This document shows positions 24,727 through 64,000 of a stretch of 64,000 nt of DNA, one piece after another (position 1 is the first letter of the stretch; every line of letters starts with the position of its first letter). A model generated the notes under the pieces. It made no database searches. It had not been told where the DNA came from and saw only the letters and a list, made by a program, of their open reading frames with translations. The stretch is from Pseudovibrio brasiliensis. Lineage in GTDB: Bacteria; Pseudomonadota; Alphaproteobacteria; Rhizobiales; Stappiaceae. The position numbers and the translations under genes are program-made. Location: NCBI RefSeq assembly GCF_018282095.1, contig NZ_CP074128.1:124001-188000 (forward strand), written 5' to 3'.

Positions 24727-24806
24727 TCTCTTCCTCTATGGGCTTTTGATTTGAGCGGAAAGAGTAGGGGAGAAGTGTTAAGGAGGGTTGAGGGGCGCTC
24801 GGGTAG

Positions 24807-26953: not shown

Positions 26954-26964
26954 GGGGTTTACTC

Positions 26965-36085: not shown

Positions 36086-36871
36086 ATGAGTTTTCCGATG
36101 CCTTCCCCTTGGTTTGATGCTGAGGCCCATCCGAATAAGCTGAACTTGGTTTGCCTGCCTCAGGCAGGGGGCGATACAAGTTTGTACAACCGATGGAAGG
36201 TGCCGCTTGGTGATCAGGTGAACGTGATGCCAGCAAAGTTTCCTGGTCGAGGGGGGCGTCTGGGAGAACCAGCAATCAATTGTATGGAAGAGGTTGTCGA
36301 TCAGTTAGCTCAAGAGATTGGGCAGTTTGGAGAAGCCCCATTTGCACTGCTTGGATCCAGTATGGGGGGCTGGATTGCTTATGAGTTAGCTCTTTACCTT
36401 GCGAAACAACATCATCTTGAACCAACCGCCCTGTTTGTGCTGGCGTCAGCCTCGCCGTTTGCTGCAAGAAGCCTTCCGTTCCTTGAAGGATGTACGCGAG
36501 AGGAAATGATTGAAGAGCTCATCTTGTTTAATCCTGACTTTAAGCAGATCGCTGAGCATGATGAGTTGGTGAGCTTACTTCTACCTGCGATCATCAGTGA
36601 TTTTAAGCTCTGCGAGACTTATCGGCCACGTGCCCCTTGGAAGGTTAAGTCCCCCATTTTTGCTTTTGCAGGACGTGAAGACCAAATTGTCGAGCGGAGC
36701 AAAGTGGAAGAATGGACGACTTTGAGCTCTGAAACCGTAGTAATTGACGACGTGGAAGGTGGACATTTCTTCATTGAAGAACTTCCCATCAAGGTGCTTG
36801 ATCAGATAAGAGAGCACGCTGCAAACGTGGTCCATCAGATGTCTCAACCCGCTACCTTGCAGCTGGCGTAA
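36086..36871 (+). CDS. Type II thioesterase of the NRPS/PKS cluster
   Basis: A 261-residue alpha/beta hydrolase of the GrsT/SrfD type that removes wrong or stalled groups from carrier proteins. It opens LNLVCLPQAGGDTSLYNRW. The nucleophile is the serine in LLGSSMGGWIAYELAL, the acidic residue is probably in FAGREDQIV, and the histidine is in VEGGHFFIEEL. The ATG at 36086 is the natural start, though the ribosome binding site is weak. The phosphopantetheinyl transferase gene follows after 6 bp. Both face the minus-strand synthase operon, so they are dedicated accessory genes. Confidence 0.9.
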   Translation: MSFPMPSPWFDAEAHPNKLNLVCLPQAGGDTSLYNRWKVPLGDQVNVMPAKFPGRGGRLGEPAINCMEEVVDQLAQEIGQFGEAPFALLGSSMGGWIAYELALYLAKQHHLEPTALFVLASASPFAARSLPFLEGCTREEMIEELILFNPDFKQIAEHDELVSLLLPAIISDFKLCETYRPRAPWKVKSPIFAFAGREDQIVERSKVEEWTTLSSETVVIDDVEGGHFFIEELPIKVLDQIREHAANVVHQMSQPATLQLA

Positions 36872-36877
36872 GACACA

Positions 36878-37645
36878 ATGCCGATTTCAGTTCCCGCCAA
36901 AGATGCTCAAGAATGGTTTCAAACTCTGAGAGGGAAGTGGCAACATTGTTACGAGACCAACAGGGTGTTGCTGGTTCTCGTGCCAATAGAGTTTCCATTT
37001 CCGGATGACTGCATTTTGACTGGGGAAGAAAAAGAAAGAAGCGCACGCTATCGGTTTATTCGAGACAGGCGAGCATATGAGTTGGGCCGCTTTATTGTTC
37101 GAACCACGCTCAAGGCTACGACTCCTCTTGAGCCTTTTGCAATTAGAGATCTAGGCAAGCCCTACATAAATGGCTATCCAGCGTTCAACATAAGCCACTC
37201 TGGTGGATTGGTTGCTGTTGCATTTGCTCGCAGGGAGCCTTTGGGCGTTGATATTGAGTTGATCCGCTCAGATAATCAATCAACTGATCTGATAGATGCT
37301 GTTTGTCATCCGGCTGAGCGTAGAGAGCTTGCAGGGTGCTCCGAGCAGGAGCGAGACGAGATGTTTTATCGTTGCTGGACCCGTAAAGAAGCTGTGTTGA
37401 AGGCAACCGGTGAAGGGCTTCGAGATGATCTTCGTTCGCTTGATGTGAAGTTATCTCAGTATCAACCGACCATTGCTTCTGAAGCTCTATCCATGGCGCT
37501 GTTTGATGTTCCTCTTCGCTGGAAAGGTTACAGCTGTGCTCTTGCTGTTGATCCAGGTGTTACAGCTATAGATGTTCTCTCACCCTTCCATTTTTATCAA
37601 CTCGCGTGTCTCGAGCAAGTCCATGACACTGAGCACGTCATCTAG
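36878..37645 (+). CDS. Sfp-type 4'-phosphopantetheinyl transferase
   Basis: A 255-residue enzyme that would attach the phosphopantetheine arm to the carrier domains of the cluster. The magnesium and CoA site is in PLGVDIELIR (the GVDIE motif), and FYRCWTRKEAVLKATGEGL is the diagnostic WxxKEAxxK-type motif. FNISHSGGLVAVAF holds the conserved SHS. The start ATG lies 6 bp after the thioesterase. Its last 66 bp overlap, on the opposite strand, the end of the 2,992-residue synthase gene. Confidence 0.93.
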   Translation: MPISVPAKDAQEWFQTLRGKWQHCYETNRVLLVLVPIEFPFPDDCILTGEEKERSARYRFIRDRRAYELGRFIVRTTLKATTPLEPFAIRDLGKPYINGYPAFNISHSGGLVAVAFARREPLGVDIELIRSDNQSTDLIDAVCHPAERRELAGCSEQERDEMFYRCWTRKEAVLKATGEGLRDDLRSLDVKLSQYQPTIASEALSMALFDVPLRWKGYSCALAVDPGVTAIDVLSPFHFYQLACLEQVHDTEHVI

Positions 37646-40600
37646 CGCCTCACCCCTCATTATGGAGTAGTGATCGGCCTCAATGACCTTCCAGTTCTGT
37701 AGATTTGGAAGAACTCCCAGCCAGTTTATCTGCGTGTTTGCACTGGTGTTTTGGTTTTCATTCAACCCTTCGGCAGTTTCAGATGCCAAAATCACATTCG
37801 CTTTCCAGAAAGGAACCGGACGCATTTGGTGATTGACCATCGCCTTGATGTTGGAGGATGTACAGCGGATAAGAGCTTCCCGATATTCTTGTTTTTCTCC
37901 GTGAATGCCCTCTTCGCTAGATTGGATGTTATCGGCTCCCCATTTTTCGCTCAGCTCCTTTAAGAAAATCTGCTCAATTTCTCGTTCGCTCAATTGTTGC
38001 AGATCTGGGCCAGAGTTTGGGGCTGGTGGGTCAATCAATGTCAACTGGCCAGAGATGCCTGACTTGTCATGGAAGTAGAGGGCTACCTCGTGTGCGATCC
38101 ATGCTCCAAATGACCAGCCGACTAAATGAACCCTTTGTTTTGCTAGGTTTTTTATCAAGGTGTCCGAGTAGACCCTTGCTCTTTCTTTTAGACTGATCTC
38201 CGGGAGGTCGGGGTTACTGTGGTGAGGGTCAGCTATGACAAGGATCTGAGTGTTAGCAGGTAGCTTTGCCGCCAATTCACGATAAGCTTCCACATCACCA
38301 CCAACCGGATGTATGAGAACAACAGTTTCTTCACCGCTTCCAGCCTGCCACTCATGTACAGTTACGGCATCAGTCCATGTGGTTTGGTTGGAATTGGGTT
38401 TAATCTCGAGCTGCTGCTCGACCAACTCCATGATCTGTCTTAGAGAGGAGTTTTTTGGGACTTGAGAAAGCAATAAACGGACGCCGTGTTTCTCTAGCAA
38501 ACCCACAAGATCGAGAAGAGTAAGAGAGTCCATACCCAGATCATAGAGGCACTCATCAGGGGCGATTTGGTCAAGGCCCAGCTGCTCTAGTAATAGAGTT
38601 TCAGTTTGATTTTGAATGGAGGTGAGTTTCGTCTCAGCATTGTCAGATATGTTTTCAAAATCAACTCCGATCAGAGATCTATAGAAGTATTGAGAGTCTT
38701 CAATATCACAAGTGCTAACCAGGACTTGCGGGAGAGACGTTGTGCGTATTTGAGAGAAGATACGCCGCCCTTCGTCGTTTGATAGCCCAACCTTCAGATG
38801 TTGCTGATGGAGTTCATCGCGCAACTCAGCAGAAACGGCCATTCCGCTCTCATTCCAGATTTCCCAATTGATGGTTGTTCTCACAGTGTTAGGTGCTACT
38901 GGATTTCTAAAATGTGCAAAGCTGTCCATCAAAGCGTTAGAGGAGGTGTAATCGAGCTGACCAGCACCACCAAGAACGGCAGACATGGATGAGCAGTAAA
39001 TAGCTCTAGCCGGCTGGAATCTCTCAATAAAATACTCGACGAAAACACTTCCTTCGTACTTTGAACGCATCTTCTTGTGAGCGTCAGCAGGGTCTCGAAA
39101 TGAGATCAGGTTTCCTTCACCGATACCTGAAGCATGGACAATCCCGGTAACAGGCAAGTTTATCTCTGCGATGCTATCTAAAGTCGTTGCCCAAATATCT
39201 GGGTTTCCTATGTCTGCTTTGATCAGATGTATTCTGGAGATCTCTCGCAATAACCCTGCGGGGACACTTGGATTGCGTGAAACGATTGCGACTTGCGACT
39301 GAGGGTCAGACAGTAAACTCTTGCAAACCTGAGTTCCGATAGCTCCACTACCACCGGTCACCACAAAGAGACCTTCTTTCTCCGCTTCAGCAATGGCTGT
39401 AGCTTGATTTCTTATGGGCAAAGTAGAAACTTCGGACTGCCAAACGAACTCATTTCTTATTGCGAGACGCTCTTTGCCTTGTTCTTGAAGTGAGAGTGCA
39501 AAGGCAACTTTAGACCACCCTCTACTGGATGGAGTATCATCAATGTCCAACCACAATGTTTGGATACCAAACTCTTGAGGAATAACTGATAATGGGCCTG
39601 AAAGCATGCCATGTTGTGGCTGGTTGACCGTACCGAATACAGGTAAAGCTCCACTGGAGAGCAAGCAAATTCTGGAAATTTTCAGACCGCATGCTTGCTG
39701 AGCTTGAAGAAGATAAGTCAGGCTATCGAGGCAGACGCTTTGAGCTTGCTGGAGATCAGCCAGTTTATCTCCTGTCCTCCTGTAAAAGAGCGGAAGGGAA
39801 TGTATCCAGTCTACTTCTTCAAGATCCATGTTTGCGAGCTGCTGAGTAAGCTGCTCAATGGAGCTCTTGCAGAATGGATTTACCGAGAGATTGCCCGGGA
39901 CGGCAGTTAAAGCGTGACCTTCAATGAAGACAGGAACAACCTGATTATAGACTTCATTGAGTGGTAGCAGATCATCAGGATTGCTATTTGCGTCCAGTAA
40001 TACAACTGCCGTTCTTGGAACTTTGCCAGCGTTGCTGCTTTCGATCCGGCACACTGGCTGCCAGACCATTTGACTGAGCCATTCGCTTTCTGGAAGCCGC
40101 TGAGGAAGGTTGGTGGCTTCCTGATTTTGGGACATTTCTTGTTCAAAAACAGTATATTGTCGAAGATTGAAGCTATATCCCGGGTGATCCCATGGTGGCG
40201 GCGTGCTTTGCTGGTTGGTGATGCTGGAGGGAGATGAGCTGTTGTAACGCTGCGGAGTAACTGCCTCAAAAGCAGGTTGTTTCAAGGCTTGGCCCAAGAC
40301 AACGTGCGTGTTGGTGCCGCCAATCCCAAAGCTGCTAACGCCCGCATAACGGGGGGCAGGGCTTTCCCAACTTCTGCCAACAGACGGAACATAAAAGCCT
40401 TTTTCATCCAAACCCAGTTCTGGGTTAGGGAGTTCAAACCCAAGATTAGGCGGTAAGTAAGCATGGTAGACCGAGAGTGCTGCTCGAATGACGCCAAGAA
40501 CACCGGCTCCGGCTCCTAAATGGCCGACCTGGCTTTTAACGGATGAGAGCGCACAGGAACCTTCTGTGAGTTTACCATAGGCATTGGAAAGTGCTTGTAC

Positions 40601-43600
40601 TTCAATGGGATCACCCAGTTGTGTCCCTGTTCCATGAGCTTCGACGTAACCGATTTGATCGCCGCTTAAGCCAGCATTCGCAAGTGCTTGTCGGATGACC
40701 TTCTCCTGACCGGAAACAGAGGGAGAAGTATAGCTCATTTTGGACCGTCCATCGTTGTTGATAGCCGATCCTTCAATAACTGCGTAAATGCGATCTCCGT
40801 TGGCTAGAGCGCGGTCCAGACACTTCAGAACCACGACACCTACACCGCTTGCACCAATGGTTCCGCTGGCGTCATTGCTGAAGGGCGCGCAGTTGCCGTC
40901 CTTGGAAAAGATGTGTTGCGACTGATACTTATAACCTTCTGTCATATCGGGATCGACAAGGACACCACCTGCAAGCATAACATCGCATTCGGCATTTTTA
41001 AGCATGCCTGCAGCACTGTGAATACCAACCAGCGAGCTACCGCAAGCAGCTTGTAGCGTTATGGCTGGGCCTTTGAGATCAAGCTGAAAGGCGACCTTGG
41101 TTGCGAGGAAGTCTTTCTCGTGGTGCAAGGCCATTTGGAACTTGTCGGGAAGGGCGAGTGAGGAGGCTGAACGGAGGGCGGCGTGGTAGTAGGTTGTTTC
41201 ACCACAGCTTGCGATGACGCCGATGTTCTGGTCATTGTGGTGAAGAGAAATACCAGCATTTTCAAGAGCATGTACGCAGCTCATCATGAAATGTCGTTGC
41301 TGTGGATCCATAAGTGCGGCTTCGCGGGGGCTGATGCCGAAGTACTCGGGATCAAACGACACCATTTCGCTCATCTGACTTCTGGCACCAACGAAGTCAG
41401 GATTATCCGGGGTGAAATGTTCGATACCACTTCGGTTTTCGAGCACCATGGACCAGAACTCTGCAAGATTATCTGCGCCTGGAACCCTGAGTGCCATGCC
41501 GATGATGGCAACTTTATCCGCGCTTTGAGCTGCTTGCTCTTTGCTGTCCGGCTGCTCCGTTTCACCATCCTTTTCAATATGTTCTGCCAGTTTAGCAGGT
41601 GTTACATGGCGGAACAGATCAGCAATACTCACCTTCACGCCGAACTCTTTGCTCAGATGCATTTGGTAACGCATCAGCTGCAGAGAGGAGCAGCCAGCCT
41701 CAAAGAATGTTTGATCTGCAGAGATTGGAGAGCCGACAACATCTTCAAATGCCGCGATGAGCTGGTTTGTGCGTTGGTTTGCGTTTTTTGTGTGTTTTTT
41801 GCGTTTCTTTGTTTCAAGCAGAATCCAATCACACAGCTTCAACGCTCTCTGGTCGATCTTGCCACTTGGTGTACGCGGCCAGTTCTCAATCTGCCTGAAC
41901 TCGTCGATACGAATGTAATCTGGTAGCCGGTTTGAAAGGTGGCAGTTAAGATCATCAGCACTAATGGAACTGTCCCGAAGGCTGACATAGGCGAATAACT
42001 TTTTGTGCTCTCCATCGAACACAACGGACGCCTGCTCGACTGCACCGTGATCGATGAGAGACATTTCCAGCTCGCCAAGTTCGACCCGGTGGCCGGAGAT
42101 TTTCACCTGATGATCCTGTCGGCCCTGATAGTTCAGGTGGCCATTCTGATCCAGAACGCCAATATCGCCCGTTTTGTAGTAAAGCTGAGATGCACCCGAG
42201 CTGCCATTTGGTTGGCGCTTAACGAACTGATCTTTGTTTAGCTCTGCATTGTTCAGATAGCAGCGACGGACCCATTGGCCTCCAATGAGGAGATGGCCCG
42301 GTTCGCCCGATACAACGGGTTGGTAGCTGTCGTCGACAAGCATGATCTCCGTATTGGCGATAGGATTGCCAATAGGGGGACGTGTTGGCCAGTTCGCTGG
42401 AGAGCCATGTAGACTATGAACGCAAACCACATGGGTTTCTGTAGGGCCGTAATGATTGTGCAAGGAAGCTTGAGGCAGTCTGGCGAAGAAATCGCGCAGT
42501 GCTCTGGTGCAATAAAGTTGTTCGCCCGCTGTCACCACGTTCTTTAAGGCAGCTGGGAAGATCTCGAACGTCAAAGCAGCTTCACAAAACAACTCCAAAG
42601 CTACAAAAGGCATATAGATGCGCTCAATGGTGTTGTCGCGCATGTATGTCAGCAGGCATCGCATGTCCTGTCGCCAGGCTGGATCAATGATATGGAAGCA
42701 ACCACCAGAGCAGAGTGTCGAAAATATCTCCTGAAACGAAACATCAAAGGCCAGCTTAGAGAACTGCATGGTGCTTTCAGCGGCGGGTAACTCTCCTTGT
42801 TCTTGCTGCCAATGCAACAAGTTGCAGAGTGTTTCGTTATAGACGTCGACTCCTTTGGGTTGGCCTGTCGAACCTGAGGTGAACAGCGTATAAAGCGGCC
42901 TTTCACTGTCAGGGAGTTCTAAAGCCGCTACATCTTGAGTGCCTTTGAGGTCTTCCAGTTCCACCGGAATTAGGAGGAGATCACCCTGTTGAAGTTCTGG
43001 TGGATAGGGTGCTCCTGCTTGATGGAGGACTGCTACTGGCTTGGCTTGTGAGACAACGGCTTGCAGCAGTTTTTCGGGGTAACTGAAGTCCAGCGGCACG
43101 ACTGTTACGCCCAGCTTTGTCAGGGCAAGGAGCGCAATGATGTACTCAGGAGAGGCATCCATGTAGAGCGCGATCCGTAATGGCTCTGTTGGATCTTCAG
43201 CACCAACGACCGTAGACTGCAGGTGTGCTGCGAGTGCGTCTGATAGCTTACCAAGCTCTTGATAGGAAAGTGTATTGTCTTGCCATGCCAAGGCTGGAGC
43301 GTGAGGTGTTTGCAAAATCTGATCGTGGAACCAGGCAGCCACCGATTTGTGTGGCAGTGCTAAATCGCTTCCTTTTAGATGAGATACCTGTTGCTGCTTG
43401 TCGGTCTTGAAAATATCGCCTGCTGGTTTGTCCAGTTCCATCTGAGATAACCCAGCGAGCATGGCTTGTTCCAGCTGCGCAATGTCCTCTGTGCTGAAGT
43501 AAGCAAGGTCATACTCCCAATAGAACTGGTAGGTCTCAGCCTCATCCAGAACTGAAAGATAAAGCGGGCATTTAGGGGTGATGCACTCCGGGAAAGATGG

Positions 43601-46558: not shown

Positions 46559-46566
46559 GATGACCT

Positions 46567-50685: not shown

Positions 50686-53600
50686 ATTTCAAACTCCTCC
50701 ATTTCGTCTTCTTCTTGCTGTGCAAGAGCTGGTGTGGCGCTGAACGTTTCAATGGTGTGTTGCCGGTTCTGGTCTGCTGTGCGCGTGCCGCCAATCATGG
50801 AATAGATGAGCTTATGGGACGAACTGAGCTGAAACAGATCATTCAGAGCTCTCTCATCAACCGAGCCAATGCCGCAAAGCCCCAGTCCTGTCTCGTGAGC
50901 GCGCATGGTGAGCAGCTGCGCCATTGCGCCCGTTTCGATCAGGCAGAACTGCTCGCTCATTTCACCGTAAAGCGGCTCTATCGCTTTGCGCTCTGCCACA
51001 AAGAACAGGGCAAATGCGGCATCTTCAAAAGTCGGGCGATTGACGAAGTAATCGTAGGTGTCCGGACTGAGTGCCTTACCATTCGCCGTTGAAATCAAAG
51101 CATGATTTTGCGGATCATAATAATATGCCCCGCCGTCCAATCCCTGCACGCGGTCAGGCTTGATGTAGATGTACGTCTGCACCGGATAGAGCCCACCTGC
51201 GCTGGCAAATAGATGTTTCGGGGCATCTGGGTTTTGATTGCGCCGCAAAGCTGAAAGCAGGTCTTCCAATCGGTTTATATGCAAAGGATCGGGAATAAAC
51301 TGACGTACAGATCGGTAGGCATCAAACTCATCAAATCCACGAGGATTTGAGTGCGCCAGTTGGTGCGTGGTGTGTTGCTGATCGAACCTGCGCAAGCCTA
51401 CATTTCGATTTTTGAAGGTCTGGCGCTCCTGTGGGTCTTCAATGGTCGCAATCGCAGAACTGTTTGCTGTGCTCTCCGCTTCAGTTTCTGCTTGGCCGAA
51501 CTGGTCCCGATACATCTTGAGGAGCGTTGCAAGGCTTGGGCTGCCCATGAACTTTGCAAGTGGAGGACGGAAGGAGAGGGCGCTGGAAAGAGCGTTAGAG
51601 ATGCGTGTAATATCGATTGATGTTGCACCCAACTGCAACAAGTTCTCCTCTGGAGCAATCTGGTTCAGTTTCAAAACATCCGAAACAATCTCGCGGATCT
51701 TTTCTTCCTGCTTTCCTGTCGGTTCAAAGCTGACTTGAGTTGTCGATGACCTGCTTGGCCGTGGCAGTTTTTTGCGATCTACTTTGCCATTTGCTGACAC
51801 TGGGATCTGTTCAATCTCGATAAGAGAAGACGGGATCATGTAGTGGGGCAGGTGCGCTCGCAAATGTTTCAGAAGTGTGTTGGTGTCGACATGGGTTCTT
51901 TCTGGTACCACATAGCCAACAAGCTGCTTGTTGCTTTGAGCTTCTCCAAAGACTTTGAAGACAGAAGCTTTCACCGCGTCATGCGCGTTGAGGACGGTCT
52001 CAATCTCACCTAACTCGATCCGGAAGCCTTGCACTTTGACCTGCGTGTCCATGCGGCCCAGAAACTCAATGTTTCCATCGGGCATATAACGGCCAAGGTC
52101 ACCTGTGCGATAAAGGCGCTCGCCGGTTGTTGGATGAGTGATGAAACGATAGTTGGTTTGCTCCTCATCCTGCCAATAGCCCTGGGCCAGTCCAAGGCCG
52201 CCAATGTAAAGCTCTCCGGTGACCCAGCACGGGCGGGCTGCCAACGCCTCATCCAGAACATAGAACTGCTGATTTTCCAACGACTTGCCATAGGGGATAC
52301 TCGTCCATTGGGGCAAGACATCCTGAACCGGGTAACAAATGGACCAGATGGAAGCTTCTGTCGCTCCCCCTAAGCTTAACACCTCAGCATTAGGTGCGAG
52401 TGCTTGTGCACGGCTCGGAAGTGAAAGCGGGATCCAGTCACCAGACAACATGATCTGGCGGAGGGCTACCCCTAGGGATTTACGATCACTCTCAGCATAA
52501 TCCACCAGCATGCCGAGAAGGGCTGGGGCGGAGTTCCAGATGGTCACATTGTGTTGCGTCACGCACTCCAGCCAATGAGCAGGGTCTTTCACTTCGTTTT
52601 CATTGGGTATGACAACAGCGCCGCCTGCTGCCAGCAATCCAAAAATGTCATAGACAGACAGATCGAAACCCAATGCAGAGATGGCAAACACGCGGTCCTC
52701 TGGCTGGACATTCAAGCGTTTGTTGATGTCCAGCAGTGTGTTTACAGCGCCGCGATGATCAATCATGACGCCCTTCGGTTCTCCAGTAGAGCCGGAGGTG
52801 AAGATCACATAGGCCAGATCATCGGGTTGTGTTTCCGCAGTTTTGAGTTTGCTGTCGCTTGCTGCGTCCAGTTCCGAGCCCACTTCAATGGTCAGAGCGC
52901 AATCCGGAACACCCTTTAACTTGTCAGCTTGGCCGGTTTTAACGCAGATGAGTTTGGAGGCGGTCCGTCGCAAAATGCCTTCAATGCGATTGGCGGGCAG
53001 ATCTGGATCTATTGGAAGATACGCGCCTCCGGCATACAAAATGGCAAGTGCAGCAACTGTCTGCTCCCAACCCGGGCGCATCTTGATGGCCACTAGCTCA
53101 CCCTTCTCCAACCCCTTTTGCTGCAAAAGAGCTGCAAGGTTCTGCGCTCGTTGCCGGGTCTGGCTGTAGGAGAGTGTCAGGGCATCGCATATGAGGGCGG
53201 GGGCATCAGGTGTCTTGAGAGCTTGTGTCTCAAAAAGCTGATGCATCAACGGCCAGTTCTGTGAAAGCGCTTTGTGGGCATCCCAATTTGGGAAGGTTTG
53301 CTTCGCTGTTTGCTGCCATCGATCCGGTGCCTCCAGCTCTTCCAGCAATGCGCAGTAAGCGTCAAACATCTCCTGCATCATGCCTTCAGGAAATAGCTCA
53401 TCGATGCTATCCCAGTTGAAGCAGAGTTCGCCATCGACCTCCAGAATCGTATGATCCAGCCAGACTTGCGGTGTTTGGGTGATCGTATGAACGTTTTGCG
53501 CATTCAGAGCAGAGGAGAGTGTGATTTCCTCCTGGTCCGGGATCATCTCAACCAGAGTACTGTTGAAGACAATCGGCATGCCTGTTTGCTGCTCACCGCG

Positions 53601-56600
53601 TTGTTTGGTCAGCTCGCGCAGAACCTGCACACCACTGACCTCGCTATGATCCATATCTTTCCAAAGTTGCCGCTGAGCTGCTTTTGCATTTGCAACAAAA
53701 TTGGTTGTGGCATCAAAGCCGACCTCCAACAGAACGATCGACGTGAAGTCACCGATGAGGCGGTTGATATGAGGGTGAAGTGGCTGGCGGTTGAACACCG
53801 GCAAGCTCAACGTAAACTGAGGCGATTGGCTCCATTTGGCCAATACCTGGGCAAAGGCAGTTAGCAAACAGCCAGAGGGCGTTACGCCATGTTGGCGTGC
53901 ATTTGCTTTGATCTGTGACCACTTGGTTGTATCCAACACAAGGTGTCTACGGGTAAACCGCGGATTGCTGATGCTTTCAGGCTGCTTTGCCAGTGGCAAA
54001 TCTGGTGCTGCTGCCAGTGTGGCAAGCCGGTCCTGCCAATACTTCAGCGAGGTTGTATAGCGTGAGCCATCCCGCAGCGCCAACTCTTGCGCCACATAGT
54101 CTCGGAAGGTGATTTCGATCTCTGGGAGCTCGACCTGAAGGTCTTCATAGAACGCGGCTAGCTCACGGGAAAAAATCTGACTGCTGGCAGCATCGACGAT
54201 CAGGGCATCCATGGAGATGTGCAGGCGAGTGACACCATTATCAAGTTGCAGGGCTCTGAACTCAAACAGTGGCCATGTGCCAGCATCCAGCACCTGATGA
54301 GACATGGCCTCCCGATTTCTGGCGATCATACGCTCTACGACACGTGCATTTCGCCCTCGGGCATCATCCGTCTGGATGATGTAGTCGGGAACATCCTGCA
54401 ATATGCGTTGTGTGCCGTCTTTCGCAAAAACAGCTCTCAGCATGTCATGGCGCTGGATCAGTTTATTCAGAGCTGCATTGAAGTGCTCGAGATCCAGATC
54501 AGGAATTTCAATTTCTTCATAAGCATGTGCGCTGACACCACCCAGCCCCAAACCATCATCTCTGCCAACCCAATAGGCCTGCTGGATGTCCGTCAATGGG
54601 AACGGCTCATACCGATTTGCTTCATCTGCATGGATCTGAACCACAGCTTGCTCTGGCTGGTTGTTCCCGGAATTGGCTGAGGCCGTGAGATCTGCAAGTA
54701 CCGGATTCTCGATGAGATCTGTGAGGGACAGGCTGAGTGACAGGTCCTTGTTCAGAGTATGAATGAGCCGCGTTGCAAGCAGCGAATGTCCGCCCAGATC
54801 GAAGAAGTTGTCTGTGCGGCCAATCTGATCAACCTTGAGCACCACCTCCCAAACCTTTGCGATGTCCGCTTCAAGGCCTGCCATAGGCGCTTCGAAGTCT
54901 GACGCTGTGAGCCGAATTGGAGAAGGCAAGGCTCTGCGGTCGACCTTGCCGTTTGGCGTGATGGGCAGTTCGTCAAGCTGCATCCAGTCTGTAGGGATCA
55001 TGTAATCGGGCAGACGGGTTTTAAGCTCTGCTCGCAGTGCGTCGACAGAACAGGTTCCAACGAAGTAACAGATCAGCCGCGCATGCTCTGCACCTGTGGA
55101 CTTATCAAAGATAACAAAGGCTTCCTGAACACCTTCAATCTGCAACACGCAGTTTGTGATCTCCATGGGCTCAATGCGGAACCCGCGAAACTTCACTTGA
55201 TCATCAGCACGTCCATGGAAGGCCAGAGTGCCATCCGGGAGATACACAGCCAGATCGCCAGTACGATACAGGCGAAGAGGAGGCTGTGATCCGAATGTGT
55301 GCGAGATGAACCGGTCAGCGGTCAGTTCTTCATTGCCGAAGTACCCAGAGGCCAGATTATCTCCGCAAACATAGATTTCACCGGTGGTTCCAGGAGGCAC
55401 GGGCCGCATGCCATCGTCCAGCAGAAACACACTGGTGTTATCCATGGGCTTACCAATAGGAGGAGAAGCTGGCCAATCCTCCATGTGGCCGCAATCCAGA
55501 ATATGCTGGGTCACAACGTGCGTTTCGGTGGGGCCGTATTGATTGTAAAAGTGACGTCCACCCAGTGCCTTAAGAAGGCTGCGCAGGCCATCGTTGACGA
55601 GCAGTGCTTCTCCCGCTGTAATCACCTCGCAAGCAGGCCCATCCGGTAGGTGTTCGGATTCAAAAAGGCCAGCCATCTGCTGAAGGACTGCAAAGGGCAA
55701 GTGGGCACGTTCAACACCGTTGGACTTGAGGAAGCCTGCTAGATTGCCAATGTCTTTGCGCTGCGTATCCGTCATCAGCACGAGACTTGAGCCCTGATAC
55801 AGTGTGCAGAAAACTTCCTGAAAAGCCACGTCGAAGTTGAGCGACGCAAACTGAAGAACACGTGTCGGCGCTTTATCCGTCGGGCCTTGCTTTAACTGCC
55901 AGTGCACCAGATTGCGCAGTGTGCGATGTGTTTGCACAACGCCTTTGGGTTTCCCCGTCGAGCCGGATGTGTAAAGCACGTAAGCAGGATCAAGCGGGGC
56001 AGGCGTATGTGCAGGATTATCCGCTGATGCTGACTGGCACTTTGTTTTGAGCTCCTCAATGGTCGCTGTTGCTTCCGCAAACTCTTCCGGGAGTTTGGAC
56101 CTCAGTGCTTTTGTTGTGATGATGAGATCTGGCTGGACATCCTGCAAGATAACATGAAGCCGAGCTAACGGATAAGCAGGGTCCAGCGGAACGACTGCAG
56201 CTCCCGCCTTCAATATGCCCAGCAGTGTGACGACCATCTGCATAGAACGGTCAATACACACTGCGATGTTAGCTTGAGCACCAATACCTTGCTGCCGGAG
56301 TGTGTGAGCAAGCTGATTGGCCTGCCTGTTTAGCTCGCCATAACTGAGTGTTTCTTGCCCGAGGATCACGGCAGTTGCCTCAGGTGTTTCCGCCGCATGC
56401 TTTTCGATCTGTCTGCTGATGCATTCGGACTCTGGATATGGCACAGGACCTTGTTGCCAACCCTCCAACGCCTGCGTTTGCTCCAGATCTGTCAGCAGGC
56501 TTATATCGCTGAGGTTTGCGCCAGTGTTCGCAACCAGTTGCGTGAGGACATGCTCAAAGTAACGCCCAATGCGAGCTGCTGTTTCTGGTTCAAACAAGTC

Positions 56601-59600
56601 GCTTGCGAACTCGATTGCTCCCTTTAGCTGTCCGTTTACATCCTGAAGGGACAGCAGCAAATCGAACTTGGCTCCTCCATGGTGATGGTGGAGCAGCTCA
56701 ACAGAAAGGCCGGGAAGCTCAAACTGATCATTGTTCTCACCCTCCCACGCAAACATCACCTGAAAGAGTGGTGCGTGCGCAAGGCTTCGGGGTGGATTGA
56801 GATGCTCAATGACCTGTTCAAAGGGGAGGTCCTGATTTTGCTGAGCCTCCAGCACCGTTTCCTGTATTTGCAAAAGATACCCGGACAGAGGCAGATCTTT
56901 GTTTGCATCCACCCGCAAAGCAAGCGTGTTGGCGAAAAAGCCGATCAGCTTATCGAGCTGCGCGTGGTCTCTGTTGGCAACCGGACTGCCAACAACCACG
57001 TCCGTTTGGCCTGAAAGTTTGGAAAGTGTGAGTGCCCAGGCACCAAGAAGCGTGGAGAACACGGTGCCGCCGCTCCCAGCCGAATACTCCTTTATTCTCC
57101 GAGATAAAGAAACATCCAGTTCCAGCGGGATTGCTGCCCCTTTGAAGGACTGTCGTTTGGGTCTCGGATGATCCAACGGCAACTCTAGGAGCACTGGCGA
57201 GCCTTCAAGCTTGGAACCCCAGTAGTGCTTCTGTTCGTTCCATGTGCCCTTGCTGAGTTCTTCTCGCTGCCACACTGCAAAGTCGGCATACTGGATTTGC
57301 AGGTCAGGGAGGTTGGGCTTCTGTTGTTGGATCAAAGCCGAATAGAGCTCGCTCAGCTCTTTGCTAAAGACACCCATGGACCAGGCATCTGAGATGCTGT
57401 GGTGCATCACAATCACGAGTGCATGATGGGCCTCATCCCGATGCAGTAAGGCCGCCCGAAAGAGTGGTCCCGCCTCCAAATCGAAAGGCTCAGCAACCAA
57501 CTGCGCTACATGCTCCTTGAGATCATCATCTTCAGTCAGCCGTGTTGGTGCTTCCATCCGCCATGTATTTGCCGGTCGAATATCCAGATAGGCTGTGCCG
57601 TCTTTTTGCTTAAACCGTGTGCGCAATGTCTCATGGCGTGCCATGATTGTCTCGATGGCTTGAGAAAGGGCAGAGACCTCTAACTTACCCTTCAGCTCAA
57701 GCAGGAGGGGCATATGGTATGCCTCGCTTTGCCCTTCCATCTCGGCCAGATACCACAGGCGTTGCTGAGAAGACGAAAGCGGGAGCTCCTTGGTTCTGTC
57801 GGTGCGAGCAATCTGAGTGCCTGTGCTGGAGGAGGTCCAGTCAATTGCTTCAGCAAGGGAGGGAAGCGTTGGCGCTGTAAACACAATGGTTGCCGCCACA
57901 TCTACGCAGAAGGCCTCGCGGATACGTTGGGCTAAACGCACTGCCAGCAGGGAGTGACCGCCAAGAGCAAAGAAGTTGTTGTGGCGCCCGATAGTGCTAA
58001 GGCCGAGCAGATCACACCAGATCTGAGCTAGCTCTGTTTCTTTCCCTTCCCGTGGAGGGGCAAACACTGCCTGTGAGAGAGTTGAGGGATCAACATCCGG
58101 TAGGGCTTTGTGATCAACCTTGCCATTTGGTGTGAGGGGGAGCTGCTGAATTGCGGCAATGCCAGCAGGCACCATGAAGTGAGGCAGTTTGTGGCTCAAA
58201 CCTTCTTTAAGTTCAGCAAGCACATCACCCGTGTCTTCACTGGAAAGAACCACATAGGCCAGCAGTTGCTCTTCCCCGGACTTCTCGTTTACGACACAAA
58301 TAGCGGCTTGCACTCGCTCATCGGCTTCAAGCGCGGCTTCCACCTCTCCTAGCTCTACACGAAACCCGCGAAGCTTAGCTTGTCTGTCATTGCGACCCAG
58401 GAACTCAATGGTTCCATCGCGAAGCAATCGACCAAGATCACCCGTTTTAAAAACTCGTAGATCCTCATGGCCCGCAATACAGGTGAATTTTTGCTCGGTT
58501 AGCTCAGGTGCGTTCCAATACCCTTGCGCAAGTCCTGCTCCGGCAACGCAGATTTCACCGACAACGCCTTCAGGTACAGGCTGGCCTGAGGGATCTAAAA
58601 CCAAGACGTCGTAGTTTTTGATTGCCTTGCCTAAACTGAGGCTGTCAGTCTTCGAAAAAGTTTGAGGCATGGTGAGAGCAAGGCAATCAATCGCTGTTTC
58701 AGTTAAGCCATAGGCATGGATGATGTGCGCATCAGGCCCGAAAACACTGCGCGCTGTAACAGCACCTTTTGAAGACCACCGGTCGGACCCGCACACAATT
58801 GTTTTGAGGGGAACTGAAGATGCTCCACTCTTCTGTATATGCGCTGTTAAGCTGTCCAGAACTGCTGGAACAAAATCAGCAAAGGTCGTCTGATGCTGCT
58901 CGATTTTGGCAAGCAGGGCTGTGCTGTCGATCAGCTCATCCTGATTGACAAGGACAAGCGTGCCTCCAAACGTGAGGGCGCGGACAAGATCTGCCGTGAA
59001 AACGTCAAATGACAAGTTAGCCATTTGCAAAACACGTGGCGGCTCGTCGAAACTATACAGTTCGCTCCAGGCATCTCTTACGGTCCAGATCGCGCAATGG
59101 TCCACCATCACGCCTTTAGGTCGCCCTGTCGAACCAGATGTGTAGATGATGTAGGCGAGGTCATCAGGGTCAATTGGAACAGTTAGGTTCTGCCCATCCA
59201 GCGAACCCCATTTATCTTCTTGGTTTTTGATATGGACAACTTCCGCCGCGAGGTCAGGCAGGTGAACCAGTTGCTTTGTCCCATATGCATCAACCAGTAT
59301 GCACTTAGGTGAGCAATCCTGAACAAGCGTGTTGATCCGCTCAGGAGGGTAGTTTGCATCAATCGGAATGTAGGCTGCGCCCGCTTTCAGGACAGCCAGC
59401 AACGCTGTGACAGCATCTGCGGACTTCTGCATACAGATCGCGATGCGGTCCTGTTCCTGAACCCCAAGTGAGCGCAGATATCTTGCTAGTTTGTTCGCTC
59501 GCTCGTTGAGTTGAGCGTATGTAAGTTTATGCTCACCATCGATGATCGCGGTTCGTTCGCCATATGATGCGGCGGTGTCTTCAAACGAAAGATGGATAGG

Positions 59601-61085
59601 CTCGGCAGTTGAGGTATTGCTGGATATCAAGAGGGACGTTTTTAGCGTTTCGGCCCGTTTGGCTTCATCCATAATGGGCAGACTAGCAACACCTTGCTCT
59701 GGATCCTCGCAAATGGCTTGAACCACCTGCAGAACATAACCTGCGAGTTGCTCGATGGACTGCTGGTTAAAGAGTGCTGTTGCGTACTCCAGTCCGCCGG
59801 AAATCTTGGTGCCGTTGTCCACCAGCTCCAGTGTAAGATCGAACTGCGATGCGCTGCGGGGAACCGAGAATGGTTCATGCTTCAAATCGGCAAAGCGAAG
59901 TGTTGCATCGTCAAGACTTTGCCAGGCAAACATGGTCTGGAACAAAGGTGTATGGGAAAGTGACCGCTGAGGGTTCAGTGCATCCACCACCTGCTCAAAA
60001 GGAACAGATTGGTTATCCTGACTGTCGAGGAATGTATCTCGCGCGTGAGCCAGCAACTGGCTCACCGTTATGTCTTCATCGAAATTGAAGCGTAACGCCA
60101 GTGTGTTGACGAACAGCCCCGCCATCTCTTCCAGCTCTTTACGGACCCTGTTGGCTGATGGTGTTCCAATGACAATGTCATCCTGACCAGACATGCGCGC
60201 AAGCACAGTTGCATAGGCGCACATAAGTACCAGATACGGAGTTGTCCCGGCCTCACATGCAAACTCTCTTACCTTTGCAGTGAGTTCAGAATCTAACTCC
60301 AGAGGTAGAAAGTCCCCCTCAAAACTTTGCTGTAGCGGACGTTGGCGGTCTGTTGGCAACAGCAAACGTTCTGGTGCTCCGGATAGGCGCTGTTCCCAAT
60401 AGGCCTTCTGCTTCTCAAAGCTTTTTTGTTGCTCAGGCTGTTTTTGCCAATAGGCATAGTCTGCGTAGGAAAGCTCAGGCGTGTTGCGGTCAATCGGTTG
60501 TCCGACCTCGGTCAGATGCGTGTAGTTTTCGCTCAGCTCCTTGAGCAAAAGCCCGTTGGACCAACCATCAGAAATGAAATGGTGCAGCACAAGCAGCAGC
60601 ACATGCTCTCTCTCACTCACCCTGATAAAGCAACACCGCGCAAGCGGGCCGGTCTTCAGATCAAACGGCTTTGTGCATTCCTTATCCGCCACTTGGTGGA
60701 TCGCAGCTTCTAAGTCGTCTTCGGCCTCAATGTTGATCAGATGCAAAGGCAAACCGCAGGTGGGAGGAGCAAACCGCAGCCCGGGCTCTCCGGTGTCTTC
60801 GCAGACAAAAGCGCGAAGCCCTTCATGTCGCGCGATCAGTTGATCCAGTGCGTTTTGAAGAGCGCTCGTGTTGAGCGCGCCTCGCAGACGTATGCCAAGT
60901 GTCAGGTGATAGGCGGATCCTATCCCTGCCATGCGAGAAAGGAACCACAGCCTCTCTTGGGCGAAAGACAAAGGCAGGGGACCTTGATCTCGCGGAGCTG
61001 CTTTAAGAGCGGTGCGCTGGCGCAGCTTCAACAACTGCTCTGGTGTAAGAGAGCGCATTTTTCGCTTGTTTTGTCCGTCCTGCAT
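50682..61085 (-). CDS. Trimodular NRPS: C-A-PCP-C-A-PCP-Cy-A-PCP-Ox (thiazole-forming)
   Basis: A 3,467-residue synthetase. C1 about 38-470 (HHFISDG at 168), A1 500-1000, PCP1 Ser1045; C2 1098-1535 (HHSISDA at 1228, glycine replaced by alanine), A2 1555-2055, PCP2 Ser2101; heterocyclisation domain 2160-2595 (DALIVDAAS at 2293 in place of HHxxxDG), A3 2610-3108, PCP3 Ser3156; C-terminal FMN oxidase of the SagB/nitroreductase type, 3230-3440. Codes read by position: A1 DVADICAI (acidic pocket, perhaps Arg), A2 DVQAIAQV (proline-like), A3 DLYNMSLI (cysteine). Cy plus cysteine A plus Ox predicts a thiazole. No epimerase is present. The acidic tail (EEDEMEEFEI) could bind the docking domain of the next protein. 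ATG at 61085 follows GGGAGGA. Confidence 0.94.
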   Translation of the reverse strand: MQDGQNKRKMRSLTPEQLLKLRQRTALKAAPRDQGPLPLSFAQERLWFLSRMAGIGSAYHLTLGIRLRGALNTSALQNALDQLIARHEGLRAFVCEDTGEPGLRFAPPTCGLPLHLINIEAEDDLEAAIHQVADKECTKPFDLKTGPLARCCFIRVSEREHVLLLVLHHFISDGWSNGLLLKELSENYTHLTEVGQPIDRNTPELSYADYAYWQKQPEQQKSFEKQKAYWEQRLSGAPERLLLPTDRQRPLQQSFEGDFLPLELDSELTAKVREFACEAGTTPYLVLMCAYATVLARMSGQDDIVIGTPSANRVRKELEEMAGLFVNTLALRFNFDEDITVSQLLAHARDTFLDSQDNQSVPFEQVVDALNPQRSLSHTPLFQTMFAWQSLDDATLRFADLKHEPFSVPRSASQFDLTLELVDNGTKISGGLEYATALFNQQSIEQLAGYVLQVVQAICEDPEQGVASLPIMDEAKRAETLKTSLLISSNTSTAEPIHLSFEDTAASYGERTAIIDGEHKLTYAQLNERANKLARYLRSLGVQEQDRIAICMQKSADAVTALLAVLKAGAAYIPIDANYPPERINTLVQDCSPKCILVDAYGTKQLVHLPDLAAEVVHIKNQEDKWGSLDGQNLTVPIDPDDLAYIIYTSGSTGRPKGVMVDHCAIWTVRDAWSELYSFDEPPRVLQMANLSFDVFTADLVRALTFGGTLVLVNQDELIDSTALLAKIEQHQTTFADFVPAVLDSLTAHIQKSGASSVPLKTIVCGSDRWSSKGAVTARSVFGPDAHIIHAYGLTETAIDCLALTMPQTFSKTDSLSLGKAIKNYDVLVLDPSGQPVPEGVVGEICVAGAGLAQGYWNAPELTEQKFTCIAGHEDLRVFKTGDLGRLLRDGTIEFLGRNDRQAKLRGFRVELGEVEAALEADERVQAAICVVNEKSGEEQLLAYVVLSSEDTGDVLAELKEGLSHKLPHFMVPAGIAAIQQLPLTPNGKVDHKALPDVDPSTLSQAVFAPPREGKETELAQIWCDLLGLSTIGRHNNFFALGGHSLLAVRLAQRIREAFCVDVAATIVFTAPTLPSLAEAIDWTSSSTGTQIARTDRTKELPLSSSQQRLWYLAEMEGQSEAYHMPLLLELKGKLEVSALSQAIETIMARHETLRTRFKQKDGTAYLDIRPANTWRMEAPTRLTEDDDLKEHVAQLVAEPFDLEAGPLFRAALLHRDEAHHALVIVMHHSISDAWSMGVFSKELSELYSALIQQQKPNLPDLQIQYADFAVWQREELSKGTWNEQKHYWGSKLEGSPVLLELPLDHPRPKRQSFKGAAIPLELDVSLSRRIKEYSAGSGGTVFSTLLGAWALTLSKLSGQTDVVVGSPVANRDHAQLDKLIGFFANTLALRVDANKDLPLSGYLLQIQETVLEAQQNQDLPFEQVIEHLNPPRSLAHAPLFQVMFAWEGENNDQFELPGLSVELLHHHHGGAKFDLLLSLQDVNGQLKGAIEFASDLFEPETAARIGRYFEHVLTQLVANTGANLSDISLLTDLEQTQALEGWQQGPVPYPESECISRQIEKHAAETPEATAVILGQETLSYGELNRQANQLAHTLRQQGIGAQANIAVCIDRSMQMVVTLLGILKAGAAVVPLDPAYPLARLHVILQDVQPDLIITTKALRSKLPEEFAEATATIEELKTKCQSASADNPAHTPAPLDPAYVLYTSGSTGKPKGVVQTHRTLRNLVHWQLKQGPTDKAPTRVLQFASLNFDVAFQEVFCTLYQGSSLVLMTDTQRKDIGNLAGFLKSNGVERAHLPFAVLQQMAGLFESEHLPDGPACEVITAGEALLVNDGLRSLLKALGGRHFYNQYGPTETHVVTQHILDCGHMEDWPASPPIGKPMDNTSVFLLDDGMRPVPPGTTGEIYVCGDNLASGYFGNEELTADRFISHTFGSQPPLRLYRTGDLAVYLPDGTLAFHGRADDQVKFRGFRIEPMEITNCVLQIEGVQEAFVIFDKSTGAEHARLICYFVGTCSVDALRAELKTRLPDYMIPTDWMQLDELPITPNGKVDRRALPSPIRLTASDFEAPMAGLEADIAKVWEVVLKVDQIGRTDNFFDLGGHSLLATRLIHTLNKDLSLSLSLTDLIENPVLADLTASANSGNNQPEQAVVQIHADEANRYEPFPLTDIQQAYWVGRDDGLGLGGVSAHAYEEIEIPDLDLEHFNAALNKLIQRHDMLRAVFAKDGTQRILQDVPDYIIQTDDARGRNARVVERMIARNREAMSHQVLDAGTWPLFEFRALQLDNGVTRLHISMDALIVDAASSQIFSRELAAFYEDLQVELPEIEITFRDYVAQELALRDGSRYTTSLKYWQDRLATLAAAPDLPLAKQPESISNPRFTRRHLVLDTTKWSQIKANARQHGVTPSGCLLTAFAQVLAKWSQSPQFTLSLPVFNRQPLHPHINRLIGDFTSIVLLEVGFDATTNFVANAKAAQRQLWKDMDHSEVSGVQVLRELTKQRGEQQTGMPIVFNSTLVEMIPDQEEITLSSALNAQNVHTITQTPQVWLDHTILEVDGELCFNWDSIDELFPEGMMQEMFDAYCALLEELEAPDRWQQTAKQTFPNWDAHKALSQNWPLMHQLFETQALKTPDAPALICDALTLSYSQTRQRAQNLAALLQQKGLEKGELVAIKMRPGWEQTVAALAILYAGGAYLPIDPDLPANRIEGILRRTASKLICVKTGQADKLKGVPDCALTIEVGSELDAASDSKLKTAETQPDDLAYVIFTSGSTGEPKGVMIDHRGAVNTLLDINKRLNVQPEDRVFAISALGFDLSVYDIFGLLAAGGAVVIPNENEVKDPAHWLECVTQHNVTIWNSAPALLGMLVDYAESDRKSLGVALRQIMLSGDWIPLSLPSRAQALAPNAEVLSLGGATEASIWSICYPVQDVLPQWTSIPYGKSLENQQFYVLDEALAARPCWVTGELYIGGLGLAQGYWQDEEQTNYRFITHPTTGERLYRTGDLGRYMPDGNIEFLGRMDTQVKVQGFRIELGEIETVLNAHDAVKASVFKVFGEAQSNKQLVGYVVPERTHVDTNTLLKHLRAHLPHYMIPSSLIEIEQIPVSANGKVDRKKLPRPSRSSTTQVSFEPTGKQEEKIREIVSDVLKLNQIAPEENLLQLGATSIDITRISNALSSALSFRPPLAKFMGSPSLATLLKMYRDQFGQAETEAESTANSSAIATIEDPQERQTFKNRNVGLRRFDQQHTTHQLAHSNPRGFDEFDAYRSVRQFIPDPLHINRLEDLLSALRRNQNPDAPKHLFASAGGLYPVQTYIYIKPDRVQGLDGGAYYYDPQNHALISTANGKALSPDTYDYFVNRPTFEDAAFALFFVAERKAIEPLYGEMSEQFCLIETGAMAQLLTMRAHETGLGLCGIGSVDERALNDLFQLSSSHKLIYSMIGGTRTADQNRQHTIETFSATPALAQQEEDEMEEFEI

Positions 61086-61121
61086 GGTTCCTCCCAGAGA
61101 CGCTGACGACCTGCTTCTGCG

Positions 61122-64000
61122 TCAGGAAAATTCTTCGGCTGCTTCCAGCTCTTCAAAAATGTAGTCGAGGGTTTGCTCAATGGTGGGACGCTCAAAGAAG
61201 ATGCGAAGAGGCACCTCCACCCCCAATGCGTCTTGCATGCGAGCCGTAATGCGTGTGGCTCGGAGGGAATGTCCGCCAATTTCAAAGAAGTTGTCGCGGA
61301 TGCCGACACCGTCCAGTTGCAAGACCTCAGCCCAGATACGCGCAAGTTCCTCTTCCAATGGCGTCTCAGGCGCCACGTAGTTGCGAACCGACTCAATGCT
61401 GTGTGCGGTTGGTGTGGGAAGCTGGCTGCGGTCAATTTTGCCGTTTGATGTTAAGGGCAAATCATCCAGCTGCACATAAAGCGCTGGGACCATATAGTCC
61501 GGCAGCTGGTTGGCCAGGGCACCGCGCATAGCAGTCGTGTCGAGTTCCGCTGCATTTTGCTGCATGCAGACATACGCAACCAGTTGAGAAGACCCTGCCT
61601 GATCTGCATGAGCGACCACAACAGCATTCAAGATACCATCAAATTGAGATAGCGCGTGTTCAATTTCGCCCGGCTCAATGCGATAACCACGCACTTTGAT
61701 CTGGAAGTCGTCTCTGCCCAGATACTCAATTGTGCCGTCTTCCAGATAGCGCCCCACATCTCCGGTTTGATAGAGCCGTTCCCCAGCCTTAAATGGGCTC
61801 GGAATAAAGCGCTCCACTGTGAGTTCAGGACGATTCAGATACCCCTTGGCAACACCGGGACCAGCCACATAGAGATCGCCTGCAACACCAACAGGAACAA
61901 GGTCCAGATGGCGATCCAGAATGTACATTTTCATACCTGCGATGGGCTGCCCTATAGGAACAACAGGCGGATACTCAGCGCAGTAATCCAACTCTAGCCT
62001 GGTGCAGTAGACACTTGCTTCTGTGGGCCCATAAAGGTTTTGTAAGTGTATTGACCCAAGAGCCTTGAAACAGCGTTCCGCAAGCCGAGAGGGGAATGCT
62101 TCGCCTCCGCAAAGGATTGATCGCAAGCTTGTGCAGGCGCTGACGTTTTCACAGGAAAGGAAAAAGTCCAGCAATGAAGGGACAAACTGACAAACAGTGA
62201 CCTGTTGTTCCGCTATCAGCTCAACCAGATAATTGCCTTCAAGCAAGCGCGCCCGATCTGCGATAACAACAGTTGCCCCACATGAAAGGCTGGCAAACAC
62301 TTCCACCACTGAAATGTCAAAGGTGAGAGACGTCGACAGTAGAACTTTGTCTTCTAGAGTGAAGGTGCCTTCTTGCAGGAACCAAGCCATGAGGTTAGCA
62401 GGGCCTTTATGGGGTACCACAACACCTTTTGGTTTGCCTGTGGTGCCGGAGGTATAAATCACATAGGCAGTGTCTTCACTGGAGACTGGTGCATTGAGGT
62501 TCTCATCGTCGAGACTTTGCCAGGGCGGTTCCTGCTGTCCCACATTGACCAGCTTTGCCGGAGGAGTAATTTCTCTCAGTTCAGAAATGCTTGCAGCGTC
62601 GCAAAGCACCAGAACAGGGGTACTGTCTTCAATCAGATACGAAATCCGCTCTGATGGATAAGTGGGATCGATTGGAATGTAGGCCCCGCCAGCTTTTAGG
62701 ATGGCAAGCAGCCCGACAACAGCATTTGCCGAATTTTGCAAACACACCGCAACGCGACTTTGGCTGGAAACACCTTGAGCAACTAAATATCTGGCAAGCT
62801 GATTAGCCTGACTGTTCAGTTGTCCGTATGTGAGTTGCGCTCCTTCGCCGACCAACGCAACTTGCGTTCCATGATCTACGGCTACAGCTTCAAATGCGCT
62901 ATGGAGTGTAGTTGAAGCCTCTTCAAACTCCGCGCCCTCTGCAAATTCAAGGAGTTTGCTTGTCTGGTCTGTATCCAACTGTACCAGTTGATGTGCAGGC
63001 GTCTGTTCTGCCTTTGAATGCACCTGAATGAGGCGCTGCAAGCAGCCAAGCGTCATATGCAATAGCGAAGAAGCAAAACTGCCATGTGGGGCTTGGGCTT
63101 GGACTTTGAAGGATGTGCCGAAGTCATCAACGGTCAGGTTGAAGGGGTAGCTCGTACCATAATGACCCGCGATGTAGTTAGCGCCCGGCAAGTCACGGTG
63201 AGAGGAACCTTGTGAGCCATCGGACATGAGCTGGGCGTGACGGAAGTTCACCAGTGAAGAGATCAGCGGTGTTGTGCGATCGACCCCACTGGCCTCAATT
63301 GCATCTGCAAGCGACGCATACTCATGATCCATCAGATCAAGAAGTGTCTGGTGGACGGCAAGAAGGGCGCTCTTCCAGTCCTGATCAGTCAGATTGACAC
63401 GCAGGGGTAGGGTATTAATGAACGGCCCCAAAATCCGCTCGGCATTCTCAAGCCCCTGTAATCGGCCAAGAAGCACAGTGGCAAAGCAAACGTCTTCCTG
63501 CCCGGAGCATTTTGCCATGACCAGTGCCCAAACGAAGTGAAAAATCGATGCAGTGCTCACGCCTAGCTGACTGGCAACCTCTCTCAGACCCGATGTCAGC
63601 GCGGTATCCGTATGGGTTGTGTCTGTATCAAGATCAGAGCCATGAACATGATCAACACCGAGACCGAGAGGCGTGTTGGGAGCCTCAAGACCTCTGAACA
63701 GCTCACTGAAGAAGTTGCGTGCGTCTCCTTTCGTGCTCTCTTCTTGCTGAAAGGCGACATATTCCTTGAACTGTGCTGGTGTTTCCAGTCGGTTGCCATC
63801 CCCCACCATGAAAGCTTTGACCTCAGCATTGAGCTGCTTGAGGGATGTGTTGTCGTCAATGATGTGGTGGAAAAGCTTGAGGAGTAACCAGCGGTCATTA
63901 TCGGTGTCGTAGCAAGTATAAACCCGCAGAAGAGATGGTTCTTGCAAATCAACTTTCGTGGTGCGCGGGGCAAAATGCGCCTGCAGCCTTTCTGCAATAT
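61122..64000 (-). CDS. NRPS, C-A-PCP end; N-terminus beyond window
   Basis: The last 958 residues of a synthetase whose frame is open to the right edge. Visible parts, numbered from the first full codon: the second half of a C domain (HHIIDDN at about 44, then SLVNFRHAQ), an A domain (about 360-865; YTSGTTGKPKG, A10 in TSNGKIDR) and a PCP (IGGHSLRA near residue 909). The specificity code reads DIVQLGLV, near the glycine code DILQLGLI, so Gly is a guess. The tail is acidic (FEELEAAEEFS), like the tail of the next protein. The gene ends 36 bp before the 3,467-residue synthetase and would pass its chain to it. A TTG at 63947 lies inside the C domain and is not the start. Confidence 0.9.
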   Translation of the reverse strand, partial: IAERLQAHFAPRTTKVDLQEPSLLRVYTCYDTDNDRWLLLKLFHHIIDDNTSLKQLNAEVKAFMVGDGNRLETPAQFKEYVAFQQEESTKGDARNFFSELFRGLEAPNTPLGLGVDHVHGSDLDTDTTHTDTALTSGLREVASQLGVSTASIFHFVWALVMAKCSGQEDVCFATVLLGRLQGLENAERILGPFINTLPLRVNLTDQDWKSALLAVHQTLLDLMDHEYASLADAIEASGVDRTTPLISSLVNFRHAQLMSDGSQGSSHRDLPGANYIAGHYGTSYPFNLTVDDFGTSFKVQAQAPHGSFASSLLHMTLGCLQRLIQVHSKAEQTPAHQLVQLDTDQTSKLLEFAEGAEFEEASTTLHSAFEAVAVDHGTQVALVGEGAQLTYGQLNSQANQLARYLVAQGVSSQSRVAVCLQNSANAVVGLLAILKAGGAYIPIDPTYPSERISYLIEDSTPVLVLCDAASISELREITPPAKLVNVGQQEPPWQSLDDENLNAPVSSEDTAYVIYTSGTTGKPKGVVVPHKGPANLMAWFLQEGTFTLEDKVLLSTSLTFDISVVEVFASLSCGATVVIADRARLLEGNYLVELIAEQQVTVCQFVPSLLDFFLSCENVSACTSLRSILCGGEAFPSRLAERCFKALGSIHLQNLYGPTEASVYCTRLELDYCAEYPPVVPIGQPIAGMKMYILDRHLDLVPVGVAGDLYVAGPGVAKGYLNRPELTVERFIPSPFKAGERLYQTGDVGRYLEDGTIEYLGRDDFQIKVRGYRIEPGEIEHALSQFDGILNAVVVAHADQAGSSQLVAYVCMQQNAAELDTTAMRGALANQLPDYMVPALYVQLDDLPLTSNGKIDRSQLPTPTAHSIESVRNYVAPETPLEEELARIWAEVLQLDGVGIRDNFFEIGGHSLRATRITARMQDALGVEVPLRIFFERPTIEQTLDYIFEELEAAEEFS

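Follow-up and report, generated by a model that had tools for sequence, protein, structure and literature searches.

A probable pseudovibriamide (ppp) cluster of Pseudovibrio brasiliensis and a possible general O-acyltransferase role for its PppH-PppI pair

The window analysed here is a 64,000-nucleotide stretch of Pseudovibrio brasiliensis (G000:C3:124001-188000) on contig C3 (420,747 bp) of a 6.03-Mb genome in six contigs, and it carries four megasynthase genes of what is almost certainly, judging from its gene content, the ppp (pseudovibriamide) cluster of a Pseudovibrio. Open reading frames (ORFs) were derived from the letters, domains were assigned by Pfam profile search, and the specificity codes of adenylation (A) domains were obtained by motif anchoring; carrier (T) domains were counted by Pfam (a motif scan alone finds fewer). 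All four synthase genes lie on the minus strand. The first encodes a PppA-type nonribosomal peptide synthetase (NRPS) and is partial in the window (61122..64000, residues ~1807 onward of 2765), where ORF, Pfam and codes give condensation (C)-A(Gly/Ala)-T. The PppB-type NRPS (50682..61085, 3467 aa) is ordered C-A(Arg)-T-C-A(Pro)-T-Cy-A(Cys)-T-Ox, with a cyclisation (Cy) domain and three C, three A and three carrier domains before a C-terminal nitroreductase-type oxidase (Ox) by Pfam. By Pfam and code, the PppC-type NRPS (46567..50685, 1372 aa) consists of a TubC-type docking domain and C-A(Gln)-T-thioesterase (TE). The PppD-type protein (37580..46558, 2992 aa) joins NRPS and polyketide synthase (PKS) modules in the order A(Val/Ile)-T-C-A(Pro)-T-KS-KR-ACP-TE, where KS, KR and ACP stand for ketosynthase, ketoreductase and acyl carrier protein. 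Pfam finds in it two A, one C, KS, KR, three carrier domains and TE, and no acyltransferase (AT) domain was found in it by Pfam or by a PF00698 search of the genome. On the plus strand lie genes for a PppF-type stand-alone type II thioesterase (36086..36871, Pfam Thioesterase E=2.1e-30) and a PppE-type 4'-phosphopantetheinyl transferase (36878..37645, Pfam ACPS E=8e-19), the latter overlapping the 3' end of the PppD-type gene by 66 bp. An original prediction, made from the letters of the window, had described four megasynthases on one strand with gaps of 36, -4 and 8 bp, a thioesterase and a phosphopantetheinyl transferase opposite them, and 1 + 3 + 1 + 2 A domains; the ORF coordinates returned the same gaps, and Pfam the same two enzymes and the same count. 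It was silent on the two internal thioesterases, which close the 1372-aa and 2992-aa proteins, and the oxidase ending the second synthase and the lack of an AT in the PKS module likewise lie beyond its text.

The complete PppA-type gene (C3:185122-193419, 2765 aa) reaches beyond the right window end. Its product contains three A, two C and three carrier domains by Pfam, in the order A(Tyr)-T-C(ureido)-A(Thr)-T-C-A-T, so the main line comprises 3+3+1 = 7 A domains on three proteins (PppA-C), to which the PppD-type protein adds two. Seven is the number that had been predicted, and the count on the complete first synthase had been set beforehand as the refuting test. Taken in order, the codes of the nine A domains give Tyr-Thr-Gly/Ala-Arg-Pro-Cys-Gln plus Val/Ile-Pro and are collinear with pseudovibriamide. 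The first, DASTVAAVC, is one that we take to be a Tyr code; among the main-line codes, DIVQLGLVY (Gly/Ala) is the hardest to assign. The first C domain of the PppA-type protein carries the exact ureido signature EHHLVHDG at residue 747 (C3:191181), which bears out the ureido-linked chain reversal named in the original prediction; this position lies outside the window and was therefore not visible to the earlier reader. Module 6 has a cyclisation motif and the C-terminal oxidase, features for thiazole formation, and the PppD-type protein shows two NRPS modules (Val/Ile/Leu and Pro), one PKS module without AT and a terminal TE. NCBIfam searches of the synthases returned general NRPS models only.

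To the right of the PppA-type gene lie genes for an MFS transporter, a GSCFA protein, two proteins that no Pfam model matches at E<=0.001 and a TauD-type dioxygenase, followed along C3 by genes for MFS, GNAT and solute-binding proteins, a histidine kinase and a response regulator. The genes from MFS to TauD fit pppG-K, and those beyond fit pppL and pppM in function. Compared with the published text and legend, the pppE-K set is present: phosphopantetheinyl transferase, type II thioesterase, transporter, H, I, J and dioxygenase K. A two-component system is described ~3 kb from the ppp cluster (PMC12911931), and one is likewise present beside the cluster here. The type III PKS placed on the ppp plasmid (PMC11796379) was found on contig C3 as well, at 93045-93440, ~18 kb from an acyltransferase domain that lies within a reading frame of 2546 aa (G000:C3:75178-76125). 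Exopolysaccharide-type genes adjoin the cluster at window positions 14913-35416 and include glycosyltransferases, Wzy_C, Polysacc_synt, Poly_export, a sugar transferase, a BBP2_2 porin and Wzz/kinase.

The best match is not an unrelated cluster: the neighbours resemble pppG-K and pppL-M, the pppH-like gene has its nearest named relative in Pseudovibrio denitrificans JCM 12308 (95%), and the codes and C-domain motifs are collinear. The Pseudovibrio host, heptapeptide A and nonadepsipeptide B, all named in the original prediction, agree with the abstract of PMC11796379, and independent tests now settle that identification. As the published ppp cluster, it is already described and not new. Pseudovibriamides are signalling peptides that steer motility genes, and they also act as antibiotic antidotes that can shield Bacillus against blasticidin S (PMC11796379, PMC12911931); further literature drawn on comprises PMC12016493, PMC11212132, PMC9487903 and PMC8302735. 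A search of PLSDB with PppC matched 2935 records, the best place having <60% identity in every one; no ppp plasmid was among the best 20 of the 2935, and records near the window may be excluded.

Two other assignments were weighed. It is very improbable that the cluster, though of this type, makes a Phe-starting product (pseudobulbiferamide, mbp), with which it shares the seven-module layout and MbpD (PMC10616845). Changed first codes do occur in relatives, DAFTVAAVW in P. denitrificans JCM 12308 (L011/G004:C8) and DAFTIAAIW in G179:C19, predicting another aromatic first residue for both, and the JCM 12308 code has to be read with care because that draft has many broken frames. The window strain, however, has DASTVAAVC, taken as a Tyr code, and its host is Pseudovibrio-like, not Microbulbifer. 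Still less credible is a detoxin/rimosamide-like (DRL) cluster outside the ppp subtype, for example a chitinimide- or pip-like one. Homologues of PppD, PppH and PppK are common to all these clusters (PMC9503745, PMC12828459), and the DRL features, an NRPS-PKS without AT, a dioxygenase and a GSCFA protein, are present here; the full 3+3+1 ureido main line with its Tyr-Thr-Gly/Ala-Arg-Pro-Cys-Gln codes nevertheless contradicts this assignment, and the 95% identity of PppH to a Pseudovibrio homologue also speaks against it.

For the ppp cluster, a biosynthetic route can be proposed in which the anatomy, codes and motifs were observed here and the chemistry comes from published ppp, pip and mbp work. 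PppA would load Tyr, and its first C domain would couple Tyr and Thr head to head via a ureido group, reversing the chain. Later modules would add Gly/Ala, Arg, Pro, Cys and Gln; the Thr residue would be converted to dehydrobutyrine, and PppB, with its cyclisation domain and oxidase, would turn Cys into a thiazole. The thioesterase of PppC would either release the heptapeptide by water, giving pseudovibriamide A, or transfer it to the hydroxyl group that the PppD product carries, giving pseudovibriamide B. PppD would build Val/Ile-Pro and extend it by one malonate, probably loaded in trans by FabD by analogy, with the KR yielding the hydroxyl. Proline would be hydroxylated by PppK and then, again by analogy, probably O-propionylated by PppH-I-J.

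Our side results bear on what loads PppD and narrow the choice that PMC11796379 leaves for PppHIJ, between propionylation of hydroxyproline and loading of PppD. In the homologous pip system, PipD, PipF and PipG acetylate the product and their mutants accumulate it unacetylated, with Ser18 and His211 of PipF and Cys47 of PipG mattering in vivo (PMC12828459). Compared by residue number, PppI Ser25, Asp215 and His218 correspond to PipF Ser18, Asp208 and His211, each shifted by +7, and PppH carries Ser46 and Cys47. G23, S25, H26, G99, D215 and H218 are invariant columns among eight PppI-like proteins, and G45, S46, C47 and F48 are invariant among eight PppH-like proteins, in which position 51 (His in PipG) is His in five and Asn in three and Thr238 is not invariant. 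Neither PppI nor PppH had a PDB profile match at E<=10. PF00698 matched twice in the genome, inside the 2546-aa reading frame (C3) and in a 317-aa protein (C1) that scores above the fabD cut-off. This FabD is the one acyltransferase of the family found as a separate protein in the genome.

That PppH-I-J are instead a trans-acyltransferase loading malonate on PppD is unlikely, although PppD has no AT domain and any single deletion of pppH, I or J in P. brasiliensis abolished pseudovibriamides B and C entirely, with no depropionylated analogue detected (PMC11796379). Besides the presence of FabD, this reading faces the findings that FabD loads the homologous PipC ACP, that PipC is functional in E. 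coli without a cluster AT (PMC12828459), and that the pip mutants pile up unacetylated product; PppI and PppH conserve the PipF and PipG residues that were tested, and H-I pairs occur at five places without a multimodular synthase in 20-21 kb. Several points weigh against the proposed route. The ppp mutant phenotype just described, which speaks against propionylation by PppH-I-J, differs from that of pip mutants, which accumulate unacylated product (PMC12828459); PppI and PppH were matched to PipF and PipG on residue numbers only; the cluster is identified from its gene content; and PppJ has no convincing family or PDB match, that of the window strain having no Pfam match at E<=1 and none better than E=0.06 in PDB profile searches. 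An RteC match in one of five PppJ homologues (E=0.077) was taken as chance.

We then turned to the GSCFA-SGNH pair beyond such clusters. Counting the genome of the window, 18 of 289 alphaproteobacterial genomes have a GSCFA match. An ORF with the G[DNS]SH motif occurred in 11 of 31 loci scanned, which is a motif count and not a census because the 31 include the own locus twice, as well as several gene fragments. A GSCFA gene stood beside such an ORF in L012 (Vreelandella), L064, L066, L068 and L084, and within the 20-21 kb inspected at each there was no multimodular synthase and no PppJ match (limit E 1e-3 at the first four, 1e-5 at L084). By blastp, PppI matched in L064 and L084; no match was obtained at the limit used in L066, L068 and L012, where the partner is recognised by motif and alignment only, the L012 partner giving E=0.001 in a two-sequence comparison. 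A ppp cluster in Vreelandella sedimenti (L012) was considered and rejected, the PppH homologue there lying among glycan genes. At L065:7830-9647 a single 605-aa protein contains both parts, matching PppH at 41% over 353 aa and PppI at 29% over 90 aa; its GSCFA profile match has E=5.7e-50, and its SGNH match (E=0.0024) is below the SGNH cut-off. This fusion supports a physical PppH-PppI partnership.

PipD, F and G are described as always together and only with such clusters (PMC12828459). The PipD/F/G-type triple may be confined to them; the PppH-PppI pair seems not to be. The recurrence of the pair without a nearby megasynthase, together with the fusion, suggests a general O-acyltransferase module. 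We tentatively propose, giving it slightly less than an even chance, that PppH (GSCFA, invariant Cys) and PppI (SGNH, Ser-Asp-His) form a two-part O-acyltransferase that acts as such a module outside antibiotic-antidote clusters, as in the neighbourhood of polysaccharide genes, and was taken up into ppp-type clusters together with the additional protein PppJ. A 2022 review lists the GSCFA family without known function, and the module, if real, would give this family a general role.

A PppJ match was present in six of the 16 Pseudovibrio genomes searched (own included). The stretches read contain all of pppA-K in G002, G009 and G011, and pppA-D, G-J and K in G010, where E and F lie outside the stretch; on the P. 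denitrificans JCM 12308 contig (G004), A, C and D are split into several reading frames and J is short. In G179 and G226, from two other alphaproteobacterial families, every gene from A to K is present at 28-70% identity and the codes are almost unchanged; by gene content, complete divergent ppp clusters occur in both families. Papers on ppp clusters in Alphaproteobacteria other than Pseudovibrio were searched for, and none among the 6 of 64 matches listed was relevant. In G010:C4 (L058 and L059 end to end), pppA and pppB are separated by an additional NRPS gene of one module (24036-27335, minus strand), encoding 1099 aa with C-A-T and a Gly/Ala-like code. It matches the start of pppB over its first 1640 bp and the end of pppA over its last 1782 bp, at 99.94% identity in each case; these parts overlap by 122 bp, and 18-bp gaps lie on either side. 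The near-identity, overlap and equal gaps are the mark of a recent tandem duplication, and the module would add an eighth residue, Gly or Ala by its code; an assembly error may also account for it. A detoxin-like cluster was seen in G624 (C1 ~251000-290000, L080-L083), a genome related at phylum level only; it has two dioxygenases and a synthase of 5629 aa whose codes read Thr-Thr-Arg-Pro-Cys. The code of its last module is ambiguous, it has no ureido loading module, and it gave weak PppF and PppJ matches and no PppE or PppG match.

Compared with published descriptions, no difference was found from ppp of P. brasiliensis Ab134 (pseudovibriamides A, B and C), which agrees in the number and order of its modules, the Tyr start, the ureido C domain, the oxidase for the thiazole, the PppD NRPS-PKS without AT, genes E-K and, in function, L-M, a type III PKS on the replicon of the cluster and a two-component system ~3 kb off. 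The mbp cluster of Microbulbifer sp. MKSA007 (pseudobulbiferamides) shares the seven main-line modules, the two-NRPS/one-PKS MbpD and the plasmid location, but its product starts with Phe, not Tyr, and the extended depsipeptide was not detected there (PMC10616845). The pip cluster of Pseudomonas entomophila (pseudotetraivprolide) has the PKS protein without AT, the dioxygenase, and GSCFA, SGNH and third proteins acylating hydroxyproline; it differs in its own peptide part (PipA, PipB) and in a free N-terminus acetylated by PipH (PMC12828459). The chitinimide (chm), detoxin, rimosamide and miramide clusters share the detoxin-like ending and differ in their peptide parts, and the chitinimides also share the ureido bond and thiazole.
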